From Tenacibaculum sp. 190524A02b (GTDB taxonomy: Bacteria > Bacteroidota > Bacteroidia > Flavobacteriales > Flavobacteriaceae), in assembly GCF_964036645.1 (NCBI RefSeq), contig NZ_OZ038525.1, positions 1,411,501 to 1,475,500 of the forward strand: a stretch of DNA of 64,000 bases, given 5' to 3'. Positions 5,240 to 58,439 of the stretch are shown one piece after another. The notes below the pieces were generated by a model. The model ran no database searches. It was not told the DNA's origin and saw only the letters and a program-made list of their open reading frames with translations. The stretch's first letter is position 1; every line of letters begins with the position of its first letter. The translations under genes were made by a program, and so were the position numbers.

Positions 5240-5827
5240 CTATCCATTTACTGAATATTTTATCAATTGCTTTATACATTCAGCGTTTAAACTAGAAGCA
5301 TAATCTACCTCTATTGTTTTCCATTTAGTGGTATCTGATATATTTTGTATTTGCACAATAAGTTCTCGTCTTTTGTTAAATTCTATTTTCCATTTTTTAA
5401 TAACTTCAGAACCATATTTATCAATCCATTGTTTTTCTTTTGGATTCTCAAAATGCTTTTTCATAAACTGATTAGGTTCACGTTGTTTAAAATACCATAT
5501 ACCTTGAAGCTCTATTTTGTCATTTTTTAAAACTTTTGTCAGTCCATCATATTGTTCTAACGTTCTTGGATATTCAGATAACAATATATTTCCACTAAAT
5601 GTTTGTAAGTTTCTTGATATAAATCTTCCTATAATTTCTTTTGTAAGCATTTCTCCATTTTCCACCAACTTCATCATTTCTTTTCCTAAATCATCATTAT
5701 TTCTCAATTGTTCTTTTAGGCAACTAGTTAAATTAAAAATAGAAGCATTTAACTCAGAAGCTAATGCTTTTTCAATTATATCTCTTGGAAATCTCCAATC
5801 GAAAAGAAGGATATTTAATTTTTTCAT
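5240..5827 (-). CDS. adenylate-kinase-like protein without a P-loop
   Basis: A 195-residue protein resembling nucleoside monophosphate kinases in its NMP-binding half: DLGKEMMKLVENGEMLTKEI (47-66) corresponds to the helix with TELGK and GELVPDE in adenylate kinase, and LSEYPRTLEQYDGL (83-96) to LDGFPRTLEQA. At the N-terminus, where the family has GxPGAGKGT, the sequence is LLFDWRFPRDI, with no glycine-rich loop or lysine. The arginines of the LID are also not recognisable. It is therefore probably not an ordinary kinase; nucleotide sensing or binding is possible. Stands alone. Confidence 0.6.
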   Translation of the reverse strand: MKKLNILLFDWRFPRDIIEKALASELNASIFNLTSCLKEQLRNNDDLGKEMMKLVENGEMLTKEIIGRFISRNLQTFSGNILLSEYPRTLEQYDGLTKVLKNDKIELQGIWYFKQREPNQFMKKHFENPKEKQWIDKYGSEVIKKWKIEFNKRRELIVQIQNISDTTKWKTIEVDYASSLNAECIKQLIKYSVNG

Positions 5828-5978
5828 TGTAATTTTTTAATTTCTTTCTAATATTATTTTTCTAAATAAGCTGTAATCTACTTATTGACGCTACTAGTAA
5901 ATATTAGCAGTAGCAACTATACATATACATACCAGGAGTATCAGAGTAAACTAGAAAATATTCTTAGCCTGCTTTTAT

Positions 5979-46356: not shown

Positions 46357-48141
46357 TTAATAATCTTCATCTGTAAGCGTTTTCATAAACACTACAATAG
46401 ACTTTATTTCTTTTTTAGTCAAACCTAGACTATCAGCTGGTAATGTTTGATATTCATAAGAAAACCCTAAACCTTCTCCTCCTCCATTATTATAAAACTC
46501 AACAACTTCTTCTAAGGTTTTATACACTCCATTATGCATATATGGTGCCGTTTTTGCTATATTTCTAATACTAGGGGTTTTAAAAAAGTGTTTTCTTTCA
46601 TTTGTTTTAAAAAGATTATACCTTCCTAAATCTTCACTTAATCCTGTTAAACCTATATTTGGAACACCAATAGCTTCTAACTCTGTATCATTATAATTAG
46701 GAGGTACAGTTCCATTAAATACAGGTGAAAAATGACAGGTTGCACATAAAGCTTTCCCTGTAAACAAGTTAAATCCATCTTTTTCCTCTTGAGTTAAAGT
46801 AGTTTCTTCTCCTCTAATGTTTTTATCAAATTTAGAATTAAACGGATTTAATGTTCTTATATAAGAAGCTATTGCATTTCGTATGTTATAATCTATTCGT
46901 TTGTTACCATATAATTCTTTTAATTTTTGCTGATAACCTTCATTTTTTATAACTCGATTTACTACTGAATCCATGGTCATATTAAATTCGTTATGGTTTT
47001 CTACCACACCTACTACTTGACCTTCTAAACTTCCTGATCTAGCATCCATAAAAAAACCTCTTTGAAAAGCTGCATAAGTTACCGTTGGTGTGTTTCTTGT
47101 TTGCCTGTTGTCAAAAACTCGTTTACCATCTGTAAATGCAAAATCTTTAACATGACAGGTTGCACAAGCCATCGTATTATCTTTTGATAATGACACATCA
47201 TTAAATAACGCTTTACCTAATGCTACTTTACTAGTTAACCTAACTGTATCGTTTTTATAGTCTGAGAAATACCCAATATTCAATGCATCTTCAGAAAATA
47301 ATGAAGTCATATTGTTTGACAATGCCATTGTAAAAGGAAACGTTACTTTCCAATCTTCCTGCACCTTAACCAATGTTTCCAACTGCGGATTTATATAACT
47401 CTTAATAAAATCAAACCTATCAAAAGTATCAAATTCATGTTTCAAAGCTTTTTGTGCCTTTTCAATTTGACTGGTAAATGTTTTTAATAATTCTTTTGAC
47501 GCAAACTTATCCTTGTGCAAGTTCACTACTGTTAAAATTGTTTGATAAGTGAGTATAGTTTCTTCTAAGGATTGATTTAATACTGGTGAATCAAAGCCTG
47601 TAATCCCCGTTGTAGCAATTCTAACTAATTGTTCTCGTAATAACCAAATAACATGGTACTCTTTTAGATCAATATGTATATTATTCCTAATTAGTTTTAA
47701 CCTGTTATTCGTTAAATCAACACTCTTTTTAAGCGCTACTGTATCAATAATTTCTTCATAAAGTGTTTCTTCTATTACTTGAAAACCAAAAGGCTTTATT
47801 ACTTTTATATTCGTTAAATCCTCCTCTTCTACTTTTAAAATATTAGGAGCGTTTAATGACTTGTAATTATTTTTATCAGAATACGCTAAAACAGGTTCTA
47901 AAAGTTTAAAATACTTTCTTGCCTTTTTATAATACTCTTTTTGTTGCGACAACTGGTTTGTTTTTGCTAGACTATCAATACTTGAGATAACTGTATCTAA
48001 ATACTGAGTATATATTACTTTTAACCCTTTATTGGCTGCTTCTAAAGAATAATACGTTGCCTCTTTTTTATGACACGATACTATTAATAGCAAAAGACAT
48101 ACACAAAGGTATGCCTTAAGCTTGCTTAATATGTTTTTCAT
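46357..48141 (-). CDS. di-haem cytochrome c peroxidase with imelysin-like N-terminal domain
   Basis: A 594-residue lipoprotein (lipobox IVSC, Cys23). Residues about 30-265 are all-helical and resemble imelysin-type domains (KPFGFQVIEETLYEE, ITGFDSPVLNQSLEETI). Residues about 290-594 are a CCP/MauG-type enzyme with two c-haem sites, MACATCHVKDFAF and LCATCHFSPVF, plus RNTPTV and the closing FKTPSIRNIAKTAPYMHNG. Acts in the periplasm on peroxide or in protein oxidation. Five bases after a PhoX-like gene, so one operon. Confidence 0.85.
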   Translation of the reverse strand: MKNILSKLKAYLCVCLLLLIVSCHKKEATYYSLEAANKGLKVIYTQYLDTVISSIDSLAKTNQLSQQKEYYKKARKYFKLLEPVLAYSDKNNYKSLNAPNILKVEEEDLTNIKVIKPFGFQVIEETLYEEIIDTVALKKSVDLTNNRLKLIRNNIHIDLKEYHVIWLLREQLVRIATTGITGFDSPVLNQSLEETILTYQTILTVVNLHKDKFASKELLKTFTSQIEKAQKALKHEFDTFDRFDFIKSYINPQLETLVKVQEDWKVTFPFTMALSNNMTSLFSEDALNIGYFSDYKNDTVRLTSKVALGKALFNDVSLSKDNTMACATCHVKDFAFTDGKRVFDNRQTRNTPTVTYAAFQRGFFMDARSGSLEGQVVGVVENHNEFNMTMDSVVNRVIKNEGYQQKLKELYGNKRIDYNIRNAIASYIRTLNPFNSKFDKNIRGEETTLTQEEKDGFNLFTGKALCATCHFSPVFNGTVPPNYNDTELEAIGVPNIGLTGLSEDLGRYNLFKTNERKHFFKTPSIRNIAKTAPYMHNGVYKTLEEVVEFYNNGGGEGLGFSYEYQTLPADSLGLTKKEIKSIVVFMKTLTDEDY

Positions 48142-48146
48142 ATTTC

Positions 48147-49676
48147 TTATCTGTCTAATCCAGTAAGTATATGTAAAACAGAACCTTCTTTTCTACTATT
48201 AGCTACATCAGAATTAGCTAAAGGATCTGTAAAAGCTGTTCCATCTGCTGGGTCCCAACCATGGTTCTGTGTAATTACCATAAATGTATTCTTACCGTTA
48301 TTTACAATATCAGTTACATCTATCATACCCGTAATTTCCCATGCTTTTCCTGTATTACCATAACCTTTAGTTGCTGCTAAATCTTGATTACATTCTAATA
48401 CCACTTTTAATTCACCTGTATTTAAATTGTATTGGTATAACCTAGCATAATGATTTTTTTCAGCAACATCAAAGTATCCGTTTGGATCTTCTTGAATGTA
48501 AGCATAATTTTCAGTTACTAAAATGTTATCAGGACTATGGAATTCTTTTGCTTTACCACTTAACTTGTCTCCATCTAATACACAAGTAATTGTTCCTTTA
48601 CCTGAAGGATCACTAGGATTTAAAACTACTTTATATATACGTCCATAAAAAGTTCCTTTATCTTTTAATCCATCTTTTCTTCTACCTGTAACACAAAAAT
48701 AAAGTTCTCTATTATTTGCTGCAGAACCTCTTCTCCAATCAATATCCTCTAATCTAGAGAATCCCATTACGTCTTTATTTTTACACTCCGTATCTAACGC
48801 ATTGATTTCTTTTTCCTGTAATTCAACAAACTCAATATCATATGATTTTCCTTCTTCCATATCCATTTCATAATCAACACCAGCAGTTGTTACTTTTAAA
48901 CCATATAACTTACCACCTTCTAAATCTCCTTGATTACCAACATACATTCCTAATTGTCCAGAAGGCATATCATTATTACTATGGTCATCTCCTATAAACA
49001 CAACCGTTTTTCCAGCATATGCATCTTTACCTATAGCCACAGCATTTTCAGTAGACCATTGTCCTAAAGCTGTTAACATTTTTGCTGTACCAGCTTGATC
49101 TGCACTTTTTGTTGGTTCAGTAGCAAAAACTCCTTTAGAAGCTCCACCCCATTCTCCTCCTGATAAATATAACGGCCCAAATCCGTGTTCTTGAGGTGAA
49201 ATTAATGAACCTGAACACTGCGCTGTATTTGCAGTAGCAGCAGCATTTAAAATATAATCTCCAGAAACAGGTCTTAAGTTTTTATTTAATTTAATACGTG
49301 CTATAGAATAATCTGCTTCTATATTATTAATTAAAGTAAAACTTCCATCAGCTTCTGCAATCAACCCTGCACCATCTGCCATTGAACCATATACAAAATC
49401 AGGTGAATTAGGTATCACATCTTCCGATGATAAAATTGGAGTAATTTTTAAATCTGAAAATTCTCCGGTAACTTTTAAAAAATTTGGTGTTTTTGATGCT
49501 GTTAAATATACACTAGCATCTGAACCATCATTTCCATCGTTTCCGTCATTTCCATCTTTACCGTCCTTACCATCTATCCCATCAATTCCGTCTACACCAT
49601 CTTGACAAGAGGTTACAGAAGTAAAAGCTATTGATATTGCCATTAAAGCAACTAAGCTTAGTTTTAATCGTTTCAT
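48147..49676 (-). CDS. PhoX-like lipoprotein with collagen-like G-x-D linker
   Basis: A 509-residue lipoprotein (lipobox SVTSC, Cys24). Directly after the Cys is a collagen-like linker GVDGIDGIDGKDGKDGNDG of Gly-x-Asp triplets (about 27-53). The rest is predicted beta-propeller with PhoX/DUF839 features: GEWGGASKGVFA, FIGDDHSNNDMPSGQLGMYV, RLEDIDWRRG and FHSPDNILVTENYAYIQEDPNG. PhoX proteins are Ca/Fe-dependent phosphatases, but metal ligands here cannot be confirmed. It heads the operon with the peroxidase. Confidence 0.72.
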   Translation of the reverse strand: MKRLKLSLVALMAISIAFTSVTSCQDGVDGIDGIDGKDGKDGNDGNDGNDGSDASVYLTASKTPNFLKVTGEFSDLKITPILSSEDVIPNSPDFVYGSMADGAGLIAEADGSFTLINNIEADYSIARIKLNKNLRPVSGDYILNAAATANTAQCSGSLISPQEHGFGPLYLSGGEWGGASKGVFATEPTKSADQAGTAKMLTALGQWSTENAVAIGKDAYAGKTVVFIGDDHSNNDMPSGQLGMYVGNQGDLEGGKLYGLKVTTAGVDYEMDMEEGKSYDIEFVELQEKEINALDTECKNKDVMGFSRLEDIDWRRGSAANNRELYFCVTGRRKDGLKDKGTFYGRIYKVVLNPSDPSGKGTITCVLDGDKLSGKAKEFHSPDNILVTENYAYIQEDPNGYFDVAEKNHYARLYQYNLNTGELKVVLECNQDLAATKGYGNTGKAWEITGMIDVTDIVNNGKNTFMVITQNHGWDPADGTAFTDPLANSDVANSRKEGSVLHILTGLDR

Positions 49677-50189
49677 TGTTTTCTTTATTTAGTTAATATT
49701 TCAGCACAAAAAAACGTTTTGAAATTAAGCTTAACCTTATCCTAATTTTAAATTGATATAAGATAAATGTTAGCTATTTTATCAAACTTTAAATAACTAG
49801 ATTTATTCTAAATAAAGATAATATAGTATTAAACTAGACAAACATTTGCTATTTAACTAATAATAAATAAAACATTGATAATTTTACAAAAAGGACGCTT
49901 AACATTAAAGAAACATTAGTATTATTTCTAGATAACTATATAAAAAGAAAAAACGCCATATAAATGACGTTTTACACCCCTTCATATTTACTTTAAAAAT
50001 ATGAATAACTACAAAGAATCTTCAACTAATACTTAATGCAGTTAAAACCAAAAAACTGCTTCAATAAACAATGAGATCTATCCGATTCCCTATAAATGCT
50101 TTTTCATAAAAATTTTCCCCGACGACTCTAAGTATTATTTTTTATTGCTTATTTCTGATACAAATATATTTTGTCAATTTTTAAATGTG
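49677..50189. other. gene-free AT-rich region upstream of the PhoX-like operon
   Basis: No convincing open frame or homology. It must hold the promoter of the minus-strand PhoX-like operon, though no perfect TAnnTTTG box was found. One hairpin (AAACGCCAT/ATGACGTTT with one mismatch) at about 49951-49971. Confidence 0.5.
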
Positions 50190-50228
50190 GTAAGTCAGTG
50201 ACTTACTTTTAGTAAGTCACTGACTTAC
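50190..50228. repeat. nested palindrome: two 17-base palindromes facing each other
   Basis: GTAAGTCAGTGACTTAC (50190-50206) and GTAAGTCACTGACTTAC (50212-50228) are each palindromic around one central base, and they are exact reverse complements of one another, 5 bases apart. Followed by GGCC-GATTTT-GGCC. It lies about 83 bases upstream of a -7 box; a dimeric regulator could bind each half. Confidence 0.85.
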
Positions 50229-50310
50229 TTTTTGGCCGATTTTGGCCTTTTTTTGCTGTTTTTTGTTAAAGAAATGTTAAAATCGTTTTTTTAGGATTCT
50301 AGAAAAGCCA

Positions 50311-50318
50311 TATCTTTG
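50311..50318 (+). promoter_or_regulatory. -7 box TATCTTTG of the first short unit
   Basis: Perfect TAnnTTTG, followed by CCCATCAATG. Transcription would begin at about 50323, so the ORF starting 50327 would be almost leaderless. A terminator closes the unit at 50507. Confidence 0.55.
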
Positions 50319-50326
50319 TCCCATCA

Positions 50327-50455
50327 ATGACAAAAATTAAAACACATAACATTCAATTTATAACACTTATTAGTGGTGTAATTGAAAAATTACTTGGAGA
50401 GTTTCTTGAAAAAAGTGACGCTCTATGTATACATTTTAAAGTTTTACAAACATGA
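50327..50455 (+). CDS. possible 42-residue small protein
   Basis: Short open frame beginning MTKIKTHNIQFITLISGVIE and ending FKVLQT. Mildly amphipathic, no signal peptide. It fills most of a unit bounded by a -7 box and a good terminator, but almost no leader precedes the ATG and no ribosome-binding site is possible, so the transcript could equally be a non-coding RNA of about 185 bases. Not recognised. Confidence 0.35.
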   Translation: MTKIKTHNIQFITLISGVIEKLLGEFLEKSDALCIHFKVLQT

Positions 50456-50482
50456 TATAACTATATAAATGAATAATACATA

Positions 50483-50507
50483 AGCGTCCAATACTATATT
50501 GGGCGCT
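50483..50507 (+). terminator. terminator of the first short unit
   Basis: Stem AGCGTCCAATA/TATTGGGCGCT (one G-T pair), loop CTA, followed by seven or more T. Confidence 0.92.
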
Positions 50508-50699
50508 TTTTTTATATTTTTTTTACAATATGAGCATCGTACATTAATACAACATATAGAATTTGATTTTAACTATTAAACAACTGATTAGCAAAACATT
50601 GTTAGTTATACACACAACTAGAGAACTTCTGGACAAATACCTCTTTGCCTCAAAACAAACATAAACCACTAACAAACAAGTAATTACCTGTAAAAATTA

Positions 50700-50731
50700 T
50701 TTGCACAGTAAAAAAAAACGCTACATCTTTG
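50700..50731 (+). promoter_or_regulatory. promoter of the second short unit
   Basis: TTTG (50700-50703), 20 bases, CATCTTTG (50724-50731), one mismatch to TAnnTTTG. The surrounding TACATCTTTGCCTCA nearly repeats TACCTCTTTGCCTCA at 50639-50653, which may be a duplicated promoter. Confidence 0.55.
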
Positions 50732-50783
50732 CCTCATCAAAAACAACAAATAATCGAATAATAACTATTTAAAATAAGTAACA

Positions 50784-50891
50784 ATGTATTTACACAGCAC
50801 AACAATCAATAGTAAGGGGAAAATGATAGCCGAATTTGGTATTGAGTTAGTAGTTAGTAAAGATGTAATTTATAAGATGTATTGTAAGTAA
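50784..50891 (+). CDS. possible 35-residue small protein
   Basis: Open frame MYLHSTTINSKGKMIAEFGI... ending DVIYKMYCK. Expected transcription start is about 50737, leaving a leader of some 47 bases, and a terminator lies 30 bases beyond the stop. No family recognised. Short frames like this arise by chance, so translation is uncertain. Confidence 0.35.
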   Translation: MYLHSTTINSKGKMIAEFGIELVVSKDVIYKMYCK

Positions 50892-50920
50892 TGAGATAAA
50901 CGATTCATTCACATATATAT

Positions 50921-50949
50921 AAAGGCATCTTAGTTTATAAGATGCCTTT
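50921..50949 (+). terminator. terminator of the second short unit
   Basis: Stem AAAGGCATCTTA/TAAGATGCCTTT with loop GTTTA, then a T-run. Confidence 0.92.
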
Positions 50950-51024
50950 TTTATTATACTATAATTAGAAAAACGTGATAAATACTCATTATTTCATTGC
51001 TAAAATGTTAAAATCAGTGAATTT

Positions 51025-51056
51025 TTTGGAAATATCGCAATAAATTCTTATATTTG
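51025..51056 (+). promoter_or_regulatory. consensus Bacteroidota promoter for the structured leader
   Basis: TTTG (51025-51028), 20-base spacer, TATATTTG (51049-51056): both elements perfect. Transcription would start near 51062 and, without a terminator before 51702, run through the structured region and the lipoprotein gene at 51484. Confidence 0.7.
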
Positions 51057-51078
51057 AGTATATGAAAATTAAAACACT

Positions 51079-51165
51079 ATGAAAACATTTAAATTGCACA
51101 TACTAATTGAAAAAGGACGTTTACTCATCCAATTGCTACGCTTCCTAAAATTTCATACACCGTAA
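51079..51165 (+). CDS. possible 28-residue leader peptide
   Basis: ATG closely behind the promoter; frame MKTFKLHILIEKGRLLIQLL ending KFHTP, hydrophobic and basic, overlapping the first stem of the structured region. A seven-codon frame (ATG 51062) precedes it. It may be a leader peptide or chance. Confidence 0.3.
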   Translation: MKTFKLHILIEKGRLLIQLLRFLKFHTP

Positions 51166-51450
51166 CGGATAACACAACTATTTTAGTTGTATGAAATCAA
51201 TCAGCTAGCGAAGCACATTAAATTGCAAACGCTTCCTAAATTTATGAAAAGGTAGAATTTACCTGAAGTCTGTTGTACTCAATAGGCCTTGGCAGTAAAG
51301 CATCTTCAAAAATTTTGACATTCATAGTCAATTAAATTCTACAAACACCCAATTCATTGGGGTGTATGGCTATACATCTTATCGAAAGATAAGCATGCTA
51401 TGAACCATCGAATGTATTTCGAGATAACTATTGCTGCATATGCGGCCTAG
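51115..51450 (+). ncRNA. candidate structured RNA or long structured 5' leader
   Basis: Dense pairing in an otherwise non-coding stretch. Seen: a three-way junction (51150-51158 with 51189-51197, enclosing CCG-TAA-CGG and ACAACT/AGTTGT; the last two pairs of the stems compete), a long-range stem 51252-51261 with 51333-51342 (10 pairs) enclosing TGAAG/CTTCA and TTGAC/GTCAA hairpins, ACACC-CAAT/ATTGGGGTGT, CTTATC-GAAA-GATAAG (51378-51393, GNRA loop) and TCGAA/TTCGA (51408-51422). The motif ACGCTTCCTAAA occurs twice. The RNA class is unknown to me. Ends about 34 bases before the lipoprotein ATG. Confidence 0.55.
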
Positions 51451-51483
51451 AAAACTAATGTCAACTATTAAAAATTGAAAATT

Positions 51484-51681
51484 ATGAAAACTTTAAAAAC
51501 TATTTTTGGTCTACTTGTTTTATTAACCTTAACTACTTCTTGTACTGATTTAAGTGAAGATTTAAAACTAAAAGATAAAATTGATAACGAGCCTCCTACT
51601 ATTACTATAGGAGTTAAAGGAGAGTCCCCTTTTTATACTGGTGGTGGAGATGGTAGTGGTGATGGAACTGATAAAGAATAA
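51484..51681 (+). CDS. small lipoprotein with Gly/Asp-rich tail
   Basis: A 65-residue lipoprotein from ATG 51484 (a TTG at 51475 is less likely): signal MKTLKTIFGLLVLLTLTTSC, then a mature peptide of about 45 residues (DLSEDLKLKDKIDNEPPT, FYTGGGDGSGDGTDKE). The acidic, glycine-rich end is unstructured. Similar short lipoproteins beside TPR kinases are familiar to me from flavobacteria, but without a known role. It is 65 bases upstream of the sensor kinase and could be its ligand or accessory; that is inference. Confidence 0.65.
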   Translation: MKTLKTIFGLLVLLTLTTSCTDLSEDLKLKDKIDNEPPTITIGVKGESPFYTGGGDGSGDGTDKE

Positions 51682-51701
51682 ATATCTTTGTCAAATATAC
51701 A

Positions 51702-51730
51702 AAAGTCTTTAGTAATTACTAAAGGCTTTT
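51702..51730 (+). terminator. terminator between lipoprotein and kinase genes
   Basis: Stem AAAGTCTTTAGT/ACTAAAGGCTTT (one G-T pair), loop AATT, then a T-run. A -7-like box TAGATTTG (51734-51741) sits directly in or after the T-run, 5 bases before the kinase ATG. Confidence 0.88.
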
Positions 51731-51746
51731 TTTTAGATTTGCATTT

Positions 51747-53795
51747 ATGCAAGAAAAGATTTTTTTTATTTTTTTTTATTTTACTTTTTCTTTGCTTTTT
51801 CTCTCTTGTAAAGAAGTTAAGAAAGACCTTCCTCAAAAAAAAGCACAAACTGAATTAGATAGTATCACTTACTTTCTAAATAAATCAAAAAAAAACTTAT
51901 TACATAAAAACTCTAGAGTTAAAATTTTAAATAAAGTTTACTCTAAAATTAAGAATAAACAAAATTCAAGTTTAAAAGCCAAACAATATAGTACTCTTGC
52001 CTATCAATATTTTAAAAATGGTGATACCATTCACTTTTTAAAATTAAACAAAGAAGCAAAAAATTTGGCCATTAAAATTAAAGATACTTTTGCCATTGCA
52101 GATGTCTATTGGAACTATGCAAATTTTTACAACAAAAAGCAAGTTTATGAAAAATCATATTCTTATTACAACAAAGCATACAACCACTTTAATAACATAA
52201 ATAAAGATTTTGAGTCTGCTAAAATGCTATATGCCATGTCCTATATAAAAGGCCGTTACAGAAGCTATATGAGTAGTGAAATTCTTAATGTAAAGGCTTT
52301 AGAAAAATTCAAGCTATTAAAGAAAAACTTTGACATTTATCAAAGTTATAATCATTTGGGACTCTTACAATATGATATTAAAGAATATAACAAAGCTATT
52401 TTTTATTATGAAAAGGCTTTAGAGTTTTACAATAAATTAAAACCAAAAACTAAAAAGAAAAACTACATAGAGATCTATAATAATATTGCTAACGCTTATT
52501 TCAAAAAAGGAAAATACAATACTGCTCTTTTTTACTATAATAAAGAACTTAATAACAATCTACTAAGAAAAGAGCAATATGCCCGTATCATAGATAATCG
52601 AGCCTTTTGTAAACTAGCAATGCATGATACTATAAGTGTTAAATCTGATTTTTTAAAAGCTTTAGAAATTCGTGATAGTTTACAGAACAAAACTGACATT
52701 ATAACCTCTAAAATACGTTTATCGGATTATTACAAATATGTAAAAGACACCATTAAGGCAATAAAATACGCTAAAGAAGCAAACAAACTAGCTAAAAGGG
52801 TTAAAAATGGGGGTGATTATTTAACTTCTTTACAGCAACTAGCCAATTTAGATACTCAAAATACCAAAAAATATTTAGACCGTTATATTACCTTTAATGA
52901 CAGCTTAATAAATGCGGAACGCAGAATACAAAATAAGTTTGCGCGTATTGAGTTTGAAACGGATGAGTATATAGAAGAAACAGAGCGTTTAACCCAACAA
53001 CGTATTTGGATTTTAGTCACCAGTTTGGGTGGTTTACTAATTTTGAGTCTGTTGTATTTTTTACGTATGCAAAAAATACAAAATGAAAAGCTAAGTATTG
53101 AAGCGGAACAACAAAAAGCTAATGAAGAAGTATACATCCTTACCTTACAACAACAAGCCAAATTGGAAGAGGAACGTATTAAAGAGCGTAACCGTATTTC
53201 AGAAGAACTACACGATGGTATTTTAGGAAAACTATTTGGTACGCGCTTTGGCTTAGGCTTTTTACCCTTGCAAGGAGATGTTGCTACTTTAGAAAAACAC
53301 AAAGACTTACTGGATGAATTACAAGATATTGAAAAAGAAATTAGAGATGTATCTCATAAGTTAAGTGATAATTTTAATAGTTCTGATATTAACTTTTCTT
53401 CAATTATTAAACAATTGCTAGAAGATAAAAGCGTTATTGGTAATTTTAAGTATCAGATTAGTGTATCCTCAGATATTTCTTGGAATGCTATGAATGAAAT
53501 AACCAAAGCTAATATTTATAGAATAATTCAGGAAGCTTTACAGAATATTATTAAGCATGCTAACGCAAAAAATGTTACTTTAGATTTTTATTTGCAAAAT
53601 GAGAATTTGGTTGCAAAAATAACAGATGATGGTGTTGGTTTTAATAGTAAAAAAGGTAAAAAAGGAATTGGTATTAAAAATATAAAATCAAGAGTTGAAA
53701 AATTAAAAGGAAGTTTAACAATAGAATCAAAAATAAACGTAGGTACTATCCTACACATTAATACTCCCTACATCAAAAAAGATGGAAGAAAATAA
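51747..53795 (+). CDS. sensor histidine kinase with extracytoplasmic TPR domain
   Basis: A 682-residue sensor. Lipoprotein-like signal (LLFLSC, Cys21), then about 380 residues of tetratricopeptide repeats (SYYNKAYNHFNNINKDFESA, AIFYYEKALEFYNKLK, TALFYYNKELNNN), one membrane helix (about 420-439), coiled coil, HisKA_3 dimerisation/phosphoacceptor motif ISEELHDGILGK (His489), and HATPase with NIYRIIQEALQNIIKHA and DDGVGFNSKKGKKGIGIKNI. The TPR part should face the periplasm and bind a peptide or protein. Its end overlaps the response regulator by 14 bases. Confidence 0.92.
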   Translation: MQEKIFFIFFYFTFSLLFLSCKEVKKDLPQKKAQTELDSITYFLNKSKKNLLHKNSRVKILNKVYSKIKNKQNSSLKAKQYSTLAYQYFKNGDTIHFLKLNKEAKNLAIKIKDTFAIADVYWNYANFYNKKQVYEKSYSYYNKAYNHFNNINKDFESAKMLYAMSYIKGRYRSYMSSEILNVKALEKFKLLKKNFDIYQSYNHLGLLQYDIKEYNKAIFYYEKALEFYNKLKPKTKKKNYIEIYNNIANAYFKKGKYNTALFYYNKELNNNLLRKEQYARIIDNRAFCKLAMHDTISVKSDFLKALEIRDSLQNKTDIITSKIRLSDYYKYVKDTIKAIKYAKEANKLAKRVKNGGDYLTSLQQLANLDTQNTKKYLDRYITFNDSLINAERRIQNKFARIEFETDEYIEETERLTQQRIWILVTSLGGLLILSLLYFLRMQKIQNEKLSIEAEQQKANEEVYILTLQQQAKLEEERIKERNRISEELHDGILGKLFGTRFGLGFLPLQGDVATLEKHKDLLDELQDIEKEIRDVSHKLSDNFNSSDINFSSIIKQLLEDKSVIGNFKYQISVSSDISWNAMNEITKANIYRIIQEALQNIIKHANAKNVTLDFYLQNENLVAKITDDGVGFNSKKGKKGIGIKNIKSRVEKLKGSLTIESKINVGTILHINTPYIKKDGRK

Positions 53796-54468
53796 CAAGT
53801 TAACAGCTTTAATCATTGACGACCACCCTTTAATTTCTGAAGCTTATAAAAGTGCTTTTCGTTATTTAGAAATGCAAGAAAACACATTTTTCTTTGACAT
53901 TCACGTGAAACATAATTGTGATGATGCGCGTGAAATTATTCATGAGTTTTCTGAGGCTAATAAAACTATTGACATTATCTTTTTAGACATGCGTTTGCCT
54001 GCTTCTGAAGACGGTACTATTTTGTCTGGTGAAGATTTAGGTCATAAGATAAACGACATGTTACCTGACAGTAAAATTATTGTTTCTACTACTTTTAATG
54101 ATAATTACAGAGTGCATAGTATTATTAGAAGTATAGATCCAGATGGTTTTTTAGTAAAAAATGATATTACGCCACATGAATTGGTAACCGCTATAAAAGA
54201 AGTGTTAACTGCTCCTCCGTATTATAGTAAAACAGTAATGAAATTGGTTCGTAACCAAATGTCTAGTGATTATATTTTGGACGATATTGATCGTAAGATT
54301 TTATACGAGCTTTCCATTGGTAATAAAATGAAGAAGCTTCCAGAGGTAATTCCACTTTCTTTTGCTGGAATTCAAAAAAGAAAACGTCAAATAGCTAAAA
54401 TTTTTGGAGTAGACAGTAATGATGACCGAGAACTTATTTTAGTAGCTAGAGATAAAGGTTTTTTATAA
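53782..54468 (+). CDS. NarL/LuxR-type response regulator
   Basis: A 228-residue response regulator: receiver domain with acidic pair IIDDHPLI and phosphoacceptor Asp69 in IIFLDMRLP, switch TTFNDN and Lys in GFLVKND. The C-terminal part (YILDDIDRKILYELSIGNKMKKLPEVIPLSFAGIQKRKRQIAKIFG) is a diverged HTH of the LuxR class. Partner of the upstream kinase, with overlapping genes. Target genes are unknown; the upstream short units are candidates. Confidence 0.92.
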   Translation: MEENNKLTALIIDDHPLISEAYKSAFRYLEMQENTFFFDIHVKHNCDDAREIIHEFSEANKTIDIIFLDMRLPASEDGTILSGEDLGHKINDMLPDSKIIVSTTFNDNYRVHSIIRSIDPDGFLVKNDITPHELVTAIKEVLTAPPYYSKTVMKLVRNQMSSDYILDDIDRKILYELSIGNKMKKLPEVIPLSFAGIQKRKRQIAKIFGVDSNDDRELILVARDKGFL

Positions 54469-54508: not shown

Positions 54509-57500
54509 CTAGTTAACAACTATGTTTCCTATATGCAAAACATCTTCTTCTTTATCTAACTTAAAAAGCTTCACTTTTCTTTTTTCATTTTTCTTTCCAT
54601 AGTTTTCAAAAGTAGTAACTTTTAATATCGTTGGTCCAGATATTTTTTGCATAGTATCCGCGTAATAATCCACTTTTATTTGATAAGTTCCTTTTATAGC
54701 GTTTTTAATCATAAATGATTCAGGACCGTAACCTTCTGTTAAATCTTCAGACATTCTACCTCCTGTTTTTGTATTTTTATTTCCATAGTATGCCTTTTCT
54801 CCATTAGGATCAATAACCCATAAATCTAAATCTGTATCATTATGATTCCAATCTACTACCACACGTATATCTGGCGTTACTCTTTTAAAAAGGCCTTTCT
54901 GATATTTATTTAGTTTTAGTTTATCGGAATAGGTATTTACCAATCGTGTTAATTCTACAAAAGCTATAGCTTCAATTCCAAAAAAACGCTCATCTATGTC
55001 TTTGTGTAATAAATCTCCATTATAAATAGAAAATAATAAATTGAAACTTTTAGAATAGTCTCCTACAAATTCATATGCCAAAGCTAAATCTCTATATGAC
55101 TGTGGTTCTTCAGGTCTTAATTCTAAAATTTTTTCGTAAACACTTACTGCCAAATTATATTTTTTTAACGCTTCTAGTTTGTATGCCAATGCTTTTAGTA
55201 ACTCATAATTATCCAACTCTATTTCAACTAGATTAGTGAGCACCCTTACTCCAATTTCTTTTTCTCCTTTACCTATAAAAAAATCAGCTACATCGATAAA
55301 GAACATAGGACTGTTTGAAAAATTCTTTTTAATTCTTAAATACTTTTTATAAGCCTCTTTAATTGTTTTTTCATTGTTTAAAATAGTTAAGTAAGGCATG
55401 GTTGCATCCCAAGATTTTAACTCTATTACTTCTTCTATTTTTTCATTTAAATCTTCTATTTTATTTTTATTATTTTTTATTCCCTCTTTAGTTACCACTA
55501 TTACCACCCCATTTTTAGCTTCCGCTCCAAAAAGTTTTATTCCATCTTGTGCTTTTAATACCTCAACCTCAAAAACTTCATTTGATTTTAAAACACTTAA
55601 AGGATTCTTATCTGTTCTTTCTCCATCTAAAATATACATGGGATTCGTTTCCATCTTCACAACACTAACATTGGCATTACTTGCAGTCTCTTCTTTAGTA
55701 AGTTTTTTACTATCAACTTTAACTCCAGAAGTTACACTACTTAAAGCGTACGAAACACTATGTCTTTTCACTGTTGATGCATAAGCAGTCACTACTACTT
55801 CTTGTAATACGCTTTCATCATTTTTTAATTCAATATCTAGGTTATTGGTAGTGTTTCCTACAAGTACTTCTTTTGTTTCCATTCCTACAAAACTAAAAAC
55901 CAACTCACTTCCTTCAGCTACATTTATAGAAAAGTTCCCATCAAAATCTGTTTCAGTACCATTCATTGTTCCTTTTACAATTACAGCTACTCCTGGCAAA
56001 GGGCCATTTTCATCTTTTACCAGCCCATGTATTGTTTTTTTAGGCAAATCACTTTCATTTAACACTTCTACTTTTTCTACAAGCTGAGTTTCTTCTTCTT
56101 GTTTTATTATTTCTACTTCTTGATCTTTTATTTCCTCTTCTACATTTTCATTTTGCTCTAAAACTTGTGGTTGTATTTCTTCAATTGAATTCTCCACTGT
56201 AGTTTGTCTTCTATTCTCTTTTGCCTCTTTTATAACATAAGACGCATCATACCATTTTAAAATATCTTTGTAATTATCAATTAGTTCTTCTTTTCTGTCT
56301 TGGATATCTAAATCATTCTCTCTTTCCTTTTTTTCTTTTAAAAGTCTTTTATAAGCTTCTTTTAACTCTTCTGGTGGTGTGATTTCATACGTTACATAAT
56401 CTTCAACCCTATCTAAAACTAACATCGATGTATAATCCGTAATTAGATGATACTGTTTAGCTAATTCAATAATCTCTTTTTTATTCTGTTGTTTTGATTT
56501 ATTTAAATGTACTAATCTTTGTTTAGCCCATAGTCTTTTTACAATTGATGAATTAGATGTTTTTTTTATTAAAACTTCTTTTTCCTCTATTACTTTATCT
56601 TGATACCCTAGCAATAGTTTTATAGATGTTGGTCTTTTAAACCTTCCTGCAACTTCAATACCGTTATTAATAGTTACTTTTTCTTTAGGATAAATCTCAA
56701 AAGTTTTATTGTTTTCCTTAATACCCAATAACTGTAAACATTCTTTAGTCAATAATTCTGTAGCCTTATTAATTGGTAACTTATTCAGGTTTATATATGT
56801 TCCTCCAGAAGTTTCTGAAATTGTTTTTAAGTATTCATGATTTGCTGATAAAAGAGAATTTACTACATAAATAGTTTTTTTAGTTCCTTCAGTATTTTGT
56901 TGTCTTAAATTATGTAACCCATCAGAAAATAAGAGTATTTCTTTAGCATCAGTTTTTATATTTTTTAGCACCTCATTTAAATTTGTTCCTCCATCATACT
57001 CCTGCTTTTTAATCTTACTTTTTAACGCTATCCAGTTTCCATTTTTTATAAGGAAATTTTCTTTAGTATGAACTGTTGAACTAAACGTAATAAACTCAAT
57101 TGTTACATTCTCTAAATATTTTAAATACGCTTCTAAAAGTGCTATCTCCTTTTCTAAGTTTTTAAGCCTCATAGAGCCAGAAACATCCCATAAAATAGTT
57201 ATTTTTTTAGGCTTTTCCTTGCTTCTAAGCTTTCCTTTAAAAGGAATATACACATTAAAATAGTCTTTATACGTTGTTACTTTTTCTTTATTTTCTTTTC
57301 CAGAAATTACTAGCTTCAAAAGATCATCTATTCTTTTATTAGTGTTTTTTATTACTGCTATTTGTTTGGTTTCTTTTTCTGTAAAAATTATGTTTTCAAA
57401 CTTTTTATTTGTCAGTTTCAATTTATTAGTTAGATTCCCTTCAATAGTGAGACAAAAATCGAATTTGTTTAACTTTTCACTAAATTTTATTGGGAAGTTA

Positions 57501-57973
57501 TGTATTAAATCACCATTTAAATACGATAGTTTTTCTTCACAGGTTACTACAATTACTTTCTCTTTATTTGGTAAAATTGGATATACTCTAGCTTTATAAT
57601 TATTCCCATTTGTTTTTTCTAATAATGCGGGATCTATTTTTTGTCTAATCGTATTTTCATAAGCTACTCTGGCTAGCTCTTTCTCTACAACAACCGCATC
57701 TCTAAGCTTTCCGTTTAAACTCATTGCAAAACCTGAAACAGCCTGTCCTTCCCCTAAAGGAAACTGTAATTCTCCCTCTAAAAGCCTATCACTATTATTA
57801 AAAAAAGTTAATTTGTATTCTGTAGTTAATGTATTACCTACTATTTTAGCTTTTATAGCCACCTTAGATAGTTTTACGAACTCACCTCCTTCTTTTATAC
57901 TTAATTTTGGTATGTTTTGTGTAAATGTTTGTATACTTATCCACAAACAGTAAAAAGTAATAATTTTTTTCAT
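54509..57973 (-). CDS. VIT/VWA-domain protein with CarboxypepD_reg-like, TPR and DUF2135 parts
   Basis: An 1154-residue exported protein. Signal peptide (about 1-18); VIT domain (about 20-150: LEGELQFPLGEGQAVSGFAM, YENTIRQKIDPALLE); VWA domain with MIDAS motif DVSGSM (about 265) and GGTNLNEVL; a Glu/Gln-rich linker; a carboxypeptidase-D-regulatory-like domain (HGLVKDENGPLPGVAVIVKG, about 665-745) ending LQEVVVTAYAS, as in the junction to TonB plugs; a degenerate plug-like piece; TPR-like helices (YNLAVSVYEKILELRPEEPQ); and a DUF2135 beta domain at the C-terminus (DTDLDLWVIDPNGEKAYYG). Probably envelope-anchored protein binding. No operon partner. Confidence 0.88.
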   Translation of the reverse strand: MKKIITFYCLWISIQTFTQNIPKLSIKEGGEFVKLSKVAIKAKIVGNTLTTEYKLTFFNNSDRLLEGELQFPLGEGQAVSGFAMSLNGKLRDAVVVEKELARVAYENTIRQKIDPALLEKTNGNNYKARVYPILPNKEKVIVVTCEEKLSYLNGDLIHNFPIKFSEKLNKFDFCLTIEGNLTNKLKLTNKKFENIIFTEKETKQIAVIKNTNKRIDDLLKLVISGKENKEKVTTYKDYFNVYIPFKGKLRSKEKPKKITILWDVSGSMRLKNLEKEIALLEAYLKYLENVTIEFITFSSTVHTKENFLIKNGNWIALKSKIKKQEYDGGTNLNEVLKNIKTDAKEILLFSDGLHNLRQQNTEGTKKTIYVVNSLLSANHEYLKTISETSGGTYINLNKLPINKATELLTKECLQLLGIKENNKTFEIYPKEKVTINNGIEVAGRFKRPTSIKLLLGYQDKVIEEKEVLIKKTSNSSIVKRLWAKQRLVHLNKSKQQNKKEIIELAKQYHLITDYTSMLVLDRVEDYVTYEITPPEELKEAYKRLLKEKKERENDLDIQDRKEELIDNYKDILKWYDASYVIKEAKENRRQTTVENSIEEIQPQVLEQNENVEEEIKDQEVEIIKQEEETQLVEKVEVLNESDLPKKTIHGLVKDENGPLPGVAVIVKGTMNGTETDFDGNFSINVAEGSELVFSFVGMETKEVLVGNTTNNLDIELKNDESVLQEVVVTAYASTVKRHSVSYALSSVTSGVKVDSKKLTKEETASNANVSVVKMETNPMYILDGERTDKNPLSVLKSNEVFEVEVLKAQDGIKLFGAEAKNGVVIVVTKEGIKNNKNKIEDLNEKIEEVIELKSWDATMPYLTILNNEKTIKEAYKKYLRIKKNFSNSPMFFIDVADFFIGKGEKEIGVRVLTNLVEIELDNYELLKALAYKLEALKKYNLAVSVYEKILELRPEEPQSYRDLALAYEFVGDYSKSFNLLFSIYNGDLLHKDIDERFFGIEAIAFVELTRLVNTYSDKLKLNKYQKGLFKRVTPDIRVVVDWNHNDTDLDLWVIDPNGEKAYYGNKNTKTGGRMSEDLTEGYGPESFMIKNAIKGTYQIKVDYYADTMQKISGPTILKVTTFENYGKKNEKRKVKLFKLDKEEDVLHIGNIVVN

Positions 57974-58134: not shown

Positions 58135-58135
58135 G

Positions 58136-58208
58136 AGCGAGAGACCGGGTTCGAACCGGCGACATTCAGCTTGGAAGGCTGACGCTCTACCAACTGAGCT
58201 ACTCTCGC
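58136..58208 (-). tRNA. tRNA-Gly (anticodon TCC), third in transcript
   Basis: 73 bases. Acceptor stem GCGAGAG/CTCTCGC, D arm GCTC-AGTTGGTA-GAGC, anticodon loop CTTCCAA, T loop TTCGAAC, discriminator T, CCA not encoded. It differs from its two neighbours by one compensated acceptor pair (A-T instead of G-C). Confidence 0.95.
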
Positions 58209-58250
58209 GGGTAAAGACTTTTGCAAATGTTTATTTTTTATTAAAAATTG

Positions 58251-58323
58251 AGCGGGAGACCGGGTTCGAACCGGCGACATTCAGCTTGGAAGGCTGACGC
58301 TCTACCAACTGAGCTACTCCCGC
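58251..58323 (-). tRNA. tRNA-Gly (anticodon TCC), second in transcript
   Basis: 73 bases, acceptor stem GCGGGAG/CTCCCGC, otherwise identical to the neighbouring copies. Spacers to both are about 42 bases and nearly identical. Confidence 0.95.
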
Positions 58324-58366
58324 GGGTAAAGACTTTTGCAAATGTTTGCTTTTTATTAAAAATTTG

Positions 58367-58439
58367 AGCGGGAGACCGGGTTCGAACCGGCGACATTCAG
58401 CTTGGAAGGCTGACGCTCTACCAACTGAGCTACTCCCGC
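58367..58439 (-). tRNA. tRNA-Gly (anticodon TCC), first in transcript
   Basis: 73 bases, same sequence as the middle copy. The three copies form one tandem minus-strand array ending in the hairpin at 58106-58134. Confidence 0.95.

Follow-up and report, generated by a model that had tools for sequence, protein, structure and literature searches.

A candidate two-component switch for secreted effectors in Tenacibaculum, with a species-specific tandem operator and a conserved leader RNA

Results

This study, which is computational throughout, concerns a signalling locus of Tenacibaculum sp. 190524A02b that lies in a window of 64,000 nucleotides (nt), the whole stretch of DNA analysed, within a 5.04-Mb genome; coordinates below are positions in this window. 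From left to right the locus comprises a small divergent transcription unit on the minus strand (U0), a nested palindrome, two small units (U1 and U2), a promoter followed by a leader RNA, a lipoprotein gene, a terminator, a TPR sensor histidine kinase gene and a response regulator gene. Our preferred reading, to which we assign a probability of roughly 0.7, is that the locus would act as a two-component control system switching on secreted antibacterial effectors in Tenacibaculum; as part of the same reading, the DNA specificity of the regulator has probably shifted repeatedly within the genus, together with the home and distant copies of its operator. In the proposed mechanism, the kinase would detect a cue through TPR repeats located outside the inner membrane and, judging from the protein families, would phosphorylate the NarL-type regulator. 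Two regulator dimers would then occupy two 17-bp inverted repeats placed 22 bp, or two helical turns, apart. The home operator would drive U0, presumably by class-II activation, and distant species-specific operators would drive RHS proteins, EndoU and AHH nucleases, M23 peptidases, bacteriocin-like peptides and immunity-type neighbours. What we observe is the conservation of the locus, the geometry of the operator, its covariation and distribution, and the type of gene found beside it; phosphotransfer, binding, activation and antibacterial function are steps that we infer.

A tandem operator at a fixed distance from the promoter

The nested palindrome, already noticed in an earlier sequence-only reading of this DNA, is exact at 50190-50228, with 18-nt arms that are 100% complementary and 3 nt between them. 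It consists of two 17-bp inverted repeats with a 22-bp period: site 1 at 50190..50206 (GTAAGTCAGTGACTTAC) and site 2, 22 bp after it, at 50212..50228 (GTAAGTCACTGACTTAC). A search of the genome for the 17-bp unit GTAAGTCANTGACTTAC, allowing up to 2 mismatches, gave a single place besides the palindrome. The arms vary by species (GTAAGTC, GTAAGTG, GTATGGT, GTGAGGT, GTACGGG, GTAGCCG and others), with the inverted symmetry mostly kept.

The spacing between operator and promoter is nearly invariant. TAnnTTTG is the Bacteroidota-type −7 promoter consensus, and an element of this type precedes each unit of the locus and recurs in aligned related loci. In 38 of the 39 home loci the operator is separated by exactly 21 nt from a −7 element on the U0 side that matches at least 5 of 6 positions (in the window TATATTTG, minus strand, 50161..50168), as against 1 equally good match in 897 cases at 23 other offsets. 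At the first 10 distant operator sites, for which the promoter side was hand-picked, the element is found at 21 nt in 9, with 5 matches in 230 cases at other offsets; at 29 further distant sites, where the better of the two sides was used, a good −7 element lies at 21 nt in 23. Given the usual position of the −7 element relative to the transcription start, the centre of the promoter-proximal operator site would fall near −40, which is a position typical of class-II activators; the geometry itself is observed, and activation would be its expected consequence.

Two genomes carry additional operators at the locus. In one (G097, contig C3, 4007769-4009086) four tandem operators lie within 1.3 kb upstream of the locus, with spacings of 293, 493 and 493, an array that suggests duplicated operator units; another (G071) has two operators at its locus.

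Distant operators often precede effector-type genes

The second place of the 17-bp unit in the window genome lies 21 nt from TAATTTTG; the open reading frame (ORF) behind it encodes an SpvB/RHS protein of 1058 aa, and another, RHS-like ORF follows. Nine more distant operator places were found in five of 11 genomes of the same operator class. For 36 distant sites, the home operator of the site's own genome was the best match, or tied for best, in 34 (19 genomes compared; 0/5000 label permutations); excluded from this test were extra operator copies at home loci and, in two genomes (G139 and G177), single or weak sites.

Pfam scans covered 30 proteins from 27 of 39 distant sites, and effector-type domains exceeded their cut-offs at 9 of these 27, DUF6973 included. 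Domains above cut-off include RHS/SpvB, DUF6973 and Endonuclease I, as well as EndoU, AHH nuclease and M23 peptidase in two genomes each. Sel1 repeats also pass their cut-off in one protein, the secretion tail of which is just under its own, and an M14 peptidase (site L298) sits on the side without a −7 element. In genome G002 the operator stands ahead of two double-glycine peptides (L208) whose matches to bacteriocin-like families are below cut-offs. Small genes of immunity size often come next after the effector-type genes. Neither this regulon nor the meaning of the divergent unit was within reach of the sequence-only reading.

Sites resembling GTAWGGTTTTTCCTTAC precede double-glycine-type peptides at seven further places (L224, L227, L231, L234, L235, L236 and L237), most of which start like MLKNISNLG...INGG. 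These may form a bacteriocin regulon of a paralogous regulator and were left out of the counts.

The operator covaries with the DNA-binding domain of the regulator

The regulator (53782..54468, plus strand, 228 aa) matches Response_reg (PF00072) above the cut-off; the GerE model is not among its Pfam matches, and no LytTR match was found. Its predicted structure has helices at residues 168-178, 183-188, 194-208 and 215-224, which form the four-helix helix-turn-helix (HTH) of LuxR type and place the protein in the NarL/FixJ class. The top PDB matches of the predicted fold include spr1814, LiaR, VraR, DesR and RcsB, and the best sequence matches are RcsB, NarL and VraR.

Across 36 loci (fragments and loci lacking a regulator or a clear operator were excluded), operator distance correlates with HTH distance once kinase and receiver distances are removed (partial r 0.50, 0/5000 permutations). 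Residues 195, 198, 202 and 205, among the 14 most operator-associated columns listed, fall inside the predicted recognition helix (194-208), and residue 191 lies just before it. The regulator alignment comprised 33 of 41 sequences. This covariation and the fixed 21-nt spacing make the regulator the strongest candidate for binding the palindrome, as the sequence-only reading had suggested.

Several observations weigh against the preferred reading. The column ranked highest for association (residue 147) is not in the HTH, and the same holds for several more of the 14; the rows of the covariation set are not independent, since several genomes have an operator class in common; and, since the regulator is linked to its home operator, cassette exchange could explain part of the covariation. 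A clear operator is missing at 7 of 46 loci, and 6 of the 29 further distant sites have no good −7 element at 21 nt. Small or unrelated genes come after some of the distant sites (among them L296, L297, L299 and L306), another site (L215) has no recognisable effector, and most of the scanned neighbours of distant sites have no informative Pfam family.

The locus is conserved in Tenacibaculum

The kinase is present in 46 of 166 genomes of the genus (E ≤ 1e-75), and 45 related loci were retrieved, giving 46 with the window. The lipoprotein, detected by its lipobox pattern and recognisable by a TTSCTDLTED-like start and a Gly/Asp-rich tail, is found at 45 of the 46, window counted; the sole exception (L115) is on a 4.2-kb contig that stops just upstream of the kinase. 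A tandem palindrome is recognisable at 39 of the 46. A leader motif (up to 4 mismatches) lies 350-380 nt 5′ of the lipoprotein start in 37 of 45 loci, the other 8 being without it. In most loci the short units, the palindrome and the leader were thus not absent beside close orthologues of the kinase, and the locus is a conserved Tenacibaculum signalling system, as had been proposed.

Searched with a covariance model built on part of the leader, 37 of the 166 genus genomes have a single copy each, and 36 of these 37 are kinase-positive; the remaining one (G153) is 70% complete. Among 397 genomes drawn from the family, the model has strong matches in two, both of this genus, and weak ones in two of other genera (E 0.007 and 0.01). 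A three-block leader pattern searched against 84,980 species genomes gave 21 loci, 20 in Tenacibaculum and one in 'Flavobacteriaceae bacterium Hp32'. A leader pattern that specifies 14 bases matches 36 stretches in viral contigs, a number taken as chance given the size of that collection.

The kinase, the lipoprotein and the sensed cue

The 682-aa kinase (51747..53795, plus strand) consists of a signal segment, TPRs, one membrane helix and HisKA_3 and HATPase domains; its hydrophobic segments are residues 3-24 and 418-441. PF02518 (HATPase) matches above its cut-off and PF07730 (HisKA_3) exactly at it (24.0), which places the protein among the HisKA_3 sensor kinases. The lipoprotein gene before it (51484..51681, plus strand) encodes 65 residues with the lipobox TTSC and a Gly/Asp-rich tail ending YTGGGDGSGDGTDKE; a terminator between the two genes (51701..51730, plus strand) is listed in many related loci. 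Lipoprotein, TPR kinase with its signal and single membrane helix, and response regulator all agree with the sequence-only reading.

Because of its constant place at the locus and its fast-diverging tail, the lipoprotein is the best local candidate for the cue, and we tentatively regard it as the most likely local signal component or modulator. Its coupling to the kinase is weak and not specific to the tail: the partial correlation with TPR distance is 0.31 for the tail (0/2000 permutations) and 0.23 for the signal-peptide part (2/2000). About as likely, at somewhat less than even odds, the cue could instead be envelope damage or attack by a competitor (competition sensing), and not a peptide or lipoprotein that the cell itself makes as a signal; the lipoprotein would then act as a regulator in the periplasm or report on lipoprotein transport. 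LiaR and VraR are envelope-stress regulators, and their presence among the closest folds of the regulator favours competition sensing, as does the presence, among the targets, of genes of nuclease, peptidase and RHS type that have neighbours of immunity size; the fast divergence of the lipoprotein tail and its tracking of the TPRs suit a ligand slightly better, bearing in mind the 0.23 of the signal-peptide part. This alternative concerns the cue alone and is compatible with the locus being a switch for weapon genes. A more elaborate form of the lipoprotein-signal idea, which we consider rather unlikely, would make the locus a private signalling channel for weapons in Bacteroidota: the Gly/Asp-rich tail would be a kin signal read by the external TPR domain and passed to the species' own regulator-operator pair, with the RNAs (U0, U1, U2 and the leader of about 400 nt) setting the threshold. 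If true, such a channel with species-own regulator-operator pairs would let a whole toxin set be rewired together.

One locus (L023, genome G011) has a second small ORF of 47 aa between lipoprotein and kinase, at about 5798-5941 of the reverse complement (MLEKMEQF...VYGG...). It has a lipoprotein-like C-terminal tail (FTGGGDGNGSTGKE) and a double-glycine-like leader in place of the lipobox; no NCBIfam model matched this GG-motif ORF.

Two adjacent TPR-less histidine kinases of 428 and 359 aa are encoded elsewhere in the window genome (L060:5779-8185; genome 2,499,778-2,502,184). Their catalytic parts are 52-55% identical to that of the window kinase, whose best other matches in the genome they are, and no response-regulator-like ORF was seen in the listed stretch around them; they could feed the same regulator.

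We also considered a link to iridescence. According to PMC12521978, iridescence mutants of Tenacibaculum discolor IMLK18 are altered in a kinase called 'nreB_2' (Q226K) and a regulator called 'uvrY_2' (A41V). In the related locus of T. discolor DSM 18842 (L022), as numbered in our analysis, kinase residue 226 is K and regulator residue 41 is Q, and on this comparison no link was found.

Does the operator belong to the linked regulator?

It is improbable, in our judgement, that the operator belongs to an unlinked transcription factor and that the regulator merely travels with the locus. Shared ancestry does account for part of the association between operator and HTH, since operator distance correlates 0.50 with kinase distance alone; with the other domains controlled for, however, the partial correlation is 0.50 for the HTH, as against −0.22 for the receiver and 0.26 for the kinase over the same 36 loci. 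Moreover, a search with the tandem operator pattern, at most 2 mismatches being allowed, finds it in 35 of the 46 genomes that have the kinase and in 0 of 35 kinase-negative ones, and a reversed-pattern control gave 0 matches in either group. The kinase-negative set was taken from 120 genus genomes with no match at E 1e-75, some having weaker matches (best 4e-50); most of a subset of such genomes carry more distant TPR kinases. Finally, regulators of the NarL/FixJ class bind inverted repeats, so that the predicted fold of the linked regulator suits the palindrome.

Small RNA units and the structured leader

Between 49500 and 55200, 10 terminator-like sites were found where 1.2 would be expected. 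The sequence-only reading had described two promoter-to-terminator units, each with one tiny ORF, and placed all elements on the plus strand. The terminators and ORFs are there, and Bacteroidota-type −7 elements precede the units; E. coli-type promoters are not enriched (32 found versus 32.1 expected), and the earlier reading had missed the minus-strand U0. U0 extends over 49974..50156 with predicted limits; its terminator at 49950..49973 (minus strand) comes from the terminator scan, and the unit recurs in aligned related loci. Its short ORF, which begins MKKHL in the window, varies among the loci shown, and U0 is probably a non-coding RNA.

U1 (50323..50508, plus strand, predicted start) follows the −7 element TATCTTTG (50311..50318), contains an ORF of 42 codons (50327-50455) and ends in a terminator at 50482-50508. 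U2 (50736..50949, plus strand, predicted start) follows the element CATCTTTG (50724..50731; alignment consensus tATaTTTG), contains an ORF of 35 codons (50784-50891) and ends in a terminator at 50921-50949. The lipoprotein unit (U3) has its −7 element, TATATTTG, at 51049..51056 (plus strand), followed by the structured leader of the lipoprotein gene (51061..51483, plus strand). We regard U1, U2 and the leader as RNA elements that are conserved at the locus.

U1, U2 and the leader each hold a short ORF of fairly constant length, and at 24 of the 35 loci examined that of U2 has a length of exactly 38 codons, the one feature that speaks for the tiny U1 and U2 ORFs being secreted signals, as the sequence-only reading had suggested of the small products. 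Their substitutions argue otherwise and make that proposal, now unsupported, quite improbable. Differences at codon positions 1/2/3 number 286/367/290 in U1 and 498/592/524 in U2, without the third-position excess of the lipoprotein (1802/1615/2726) and the regulator (41517/22503/79976), and the leader ORF likewise has none; the test excluded L096, L116, L129, L130, loci without an ORF at the expected place and pairs outside 3-35% difference. Since they lack this excess, U1, U2 and the leader are read as probably non-coding RNAs.

Folding supports structure in two of the three. U1 folds better than shuffled sequences (z −5.0) and the leader moderately so (51061-51483, z −2.4), in line with the folded region that had been noted before the lipoprotein gene; U2 does not fold clearly better (z −1.5). 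Of the 37 leaders, 28 were aligned (close duplicates and one diverged leader being excluded), and 26 of these 28 entered the covariance model. In the consensus structure of the 28 leaders 96.9% of cells are paired and 8 pairs are changed on both sides, more than in all 500 shuffles and all slid versions, the structure being tested on the alignment from which it was derived. As many further pair types were attained in 5 of the 500 shuffles. Helices 5-7 contain the double changes, and the long-range closing helix (1) shows one-sided changes only. With Rfam 15 at curated thresholds the leader is unmatched and only three tRNAs match in the window; at a low threshold there are 15 matches up to E 5, all far under the gathering scores of their families.

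Pairing of U0 with U1, U2 or the leader was examined in 31 genomes and rejected, cognate pairs being no better than non-cognate or shuffled ones. For a terminator/antiterminator switch, pairing of the unit body with the terminator arm somewhat exceeds that of shuffles in U1 (14.7 versus 11.7, standard deviation 2.3) and U2 (14.4 versus 11.1, standard deviation 2.1), and differs little between cognate and non-cognate pairs (14.7 versus 12.9 and 14.4 versus 14.1). In many loci U1, U2 and the leader have in common an AAGGAYGTTTA-like stretch (in the window at about 50410, 50860 and 51110), which stands in different reading frames. Upstream of the U2 promoter, the alignment of loci also reveals a conserved element at 50618..50635 (TCTGGA...TCYGGACAG, with a consensus like TCTGGATAATATCYGGACAG), which looks like a binding site of another regulator.

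That the palindrome is a bidirectional terminator or a cruciform rather than an operator is very unlikely: its arms could form an 18-bp hairpin with a 3-nt loop followed by T runs, but it is not listed by the terminator scan, it lies between diverging units, it keeps the 21-nt distance to a −7 element at 38 of the 39 loci and likewise at 9 of the 10 distant sites, and in one locus (L125) the long hairpin has, as we read the sequence, lost pairing in its middle while each 17-bp unit has kept its full symmetry.

Neighbouring genes

On the minus strand to the left of the locus, a lipoprotein-like gene with a short collagen-type repeat below the Pfam cut-off adjoins a MauG-type di-haem peroxidase (48147-49676 and 46357-48141). 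To the right lie a gene (54509-57973) for a 1154-aa protein that has VIT, VWA, CarboxypepD-reg and DUF2135 domains and matches TPR weakly and a row of three tRNA-Gly (TCC) genes (58135-58439).

Discussion

To our knowledge, the regulation of polymorphic toxins and bacteriocins in Bacteroidota is little described. Each protein of the locus is of a known class, and among the literature matches listed there was no comparable system uniting a TPR kinase and a NarL-type regulator with a species-specific tandem operator, a lipoprotein, an RNA array and a toxin regulon. The locus is thus a testable candidate for a master switch of weapon genes. Its operator rule (tandem repeats, 22-bp period, 21 nt to the −7 element) points to effector genes from sequence alone; the co-changing regulator-operator pairs offer a natural series for studying the evolution of DNA specificity; and a leader RNA without an Rfam match accompanies the kinase in 36 of 37 genomes.

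With respect to RNA families, U1 and the leader fold better than shuffles and the leader shows compensatory changes, yet no Rfam family matches at curated thresholds. The regulator resembles LiaR, VraR, DesR and RcsB of the NarL/FixJ class, which share its receiver and helix-turn-helix and are among its best structural matches; it differs from them in sequence (16-20% identity), in a partner kinase with TPR repeats and in an operator arm that varies between species of one genus. Like polymorphic toxin-immunity loci, the targets have a variable C-terminal toxin-type domain (EndoU, AHH) or RHS, often followed by small immunity-size genes; unlike them, they share a species-specific operator that would place them under one two-component system.

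A further close analogy is with Blp and Pln, which are peptide-pheromone systems regulating bacteriocins. The LytTR-type regulator and direct-repeat operators that mark those systems were not found here: the kinase is of the TPR/HisKA_3 type, the regulator is NarL-type and the repeats are inverted. In place of a double-glycine pheromone precursor beside the kinase there is a lipoprotein, at 45 of 46 loci, accompanied by an array of small RNA units, and most of the recognised targets are large polymorphic-toxin-like proteins. What the Tenacibaculum locus shares with Blp and Pln is its overall plan: a kinase-regulator pair beside a small exported product, repeats in the target promoters and putative bacteriocin-type targets at separate places in the genome.

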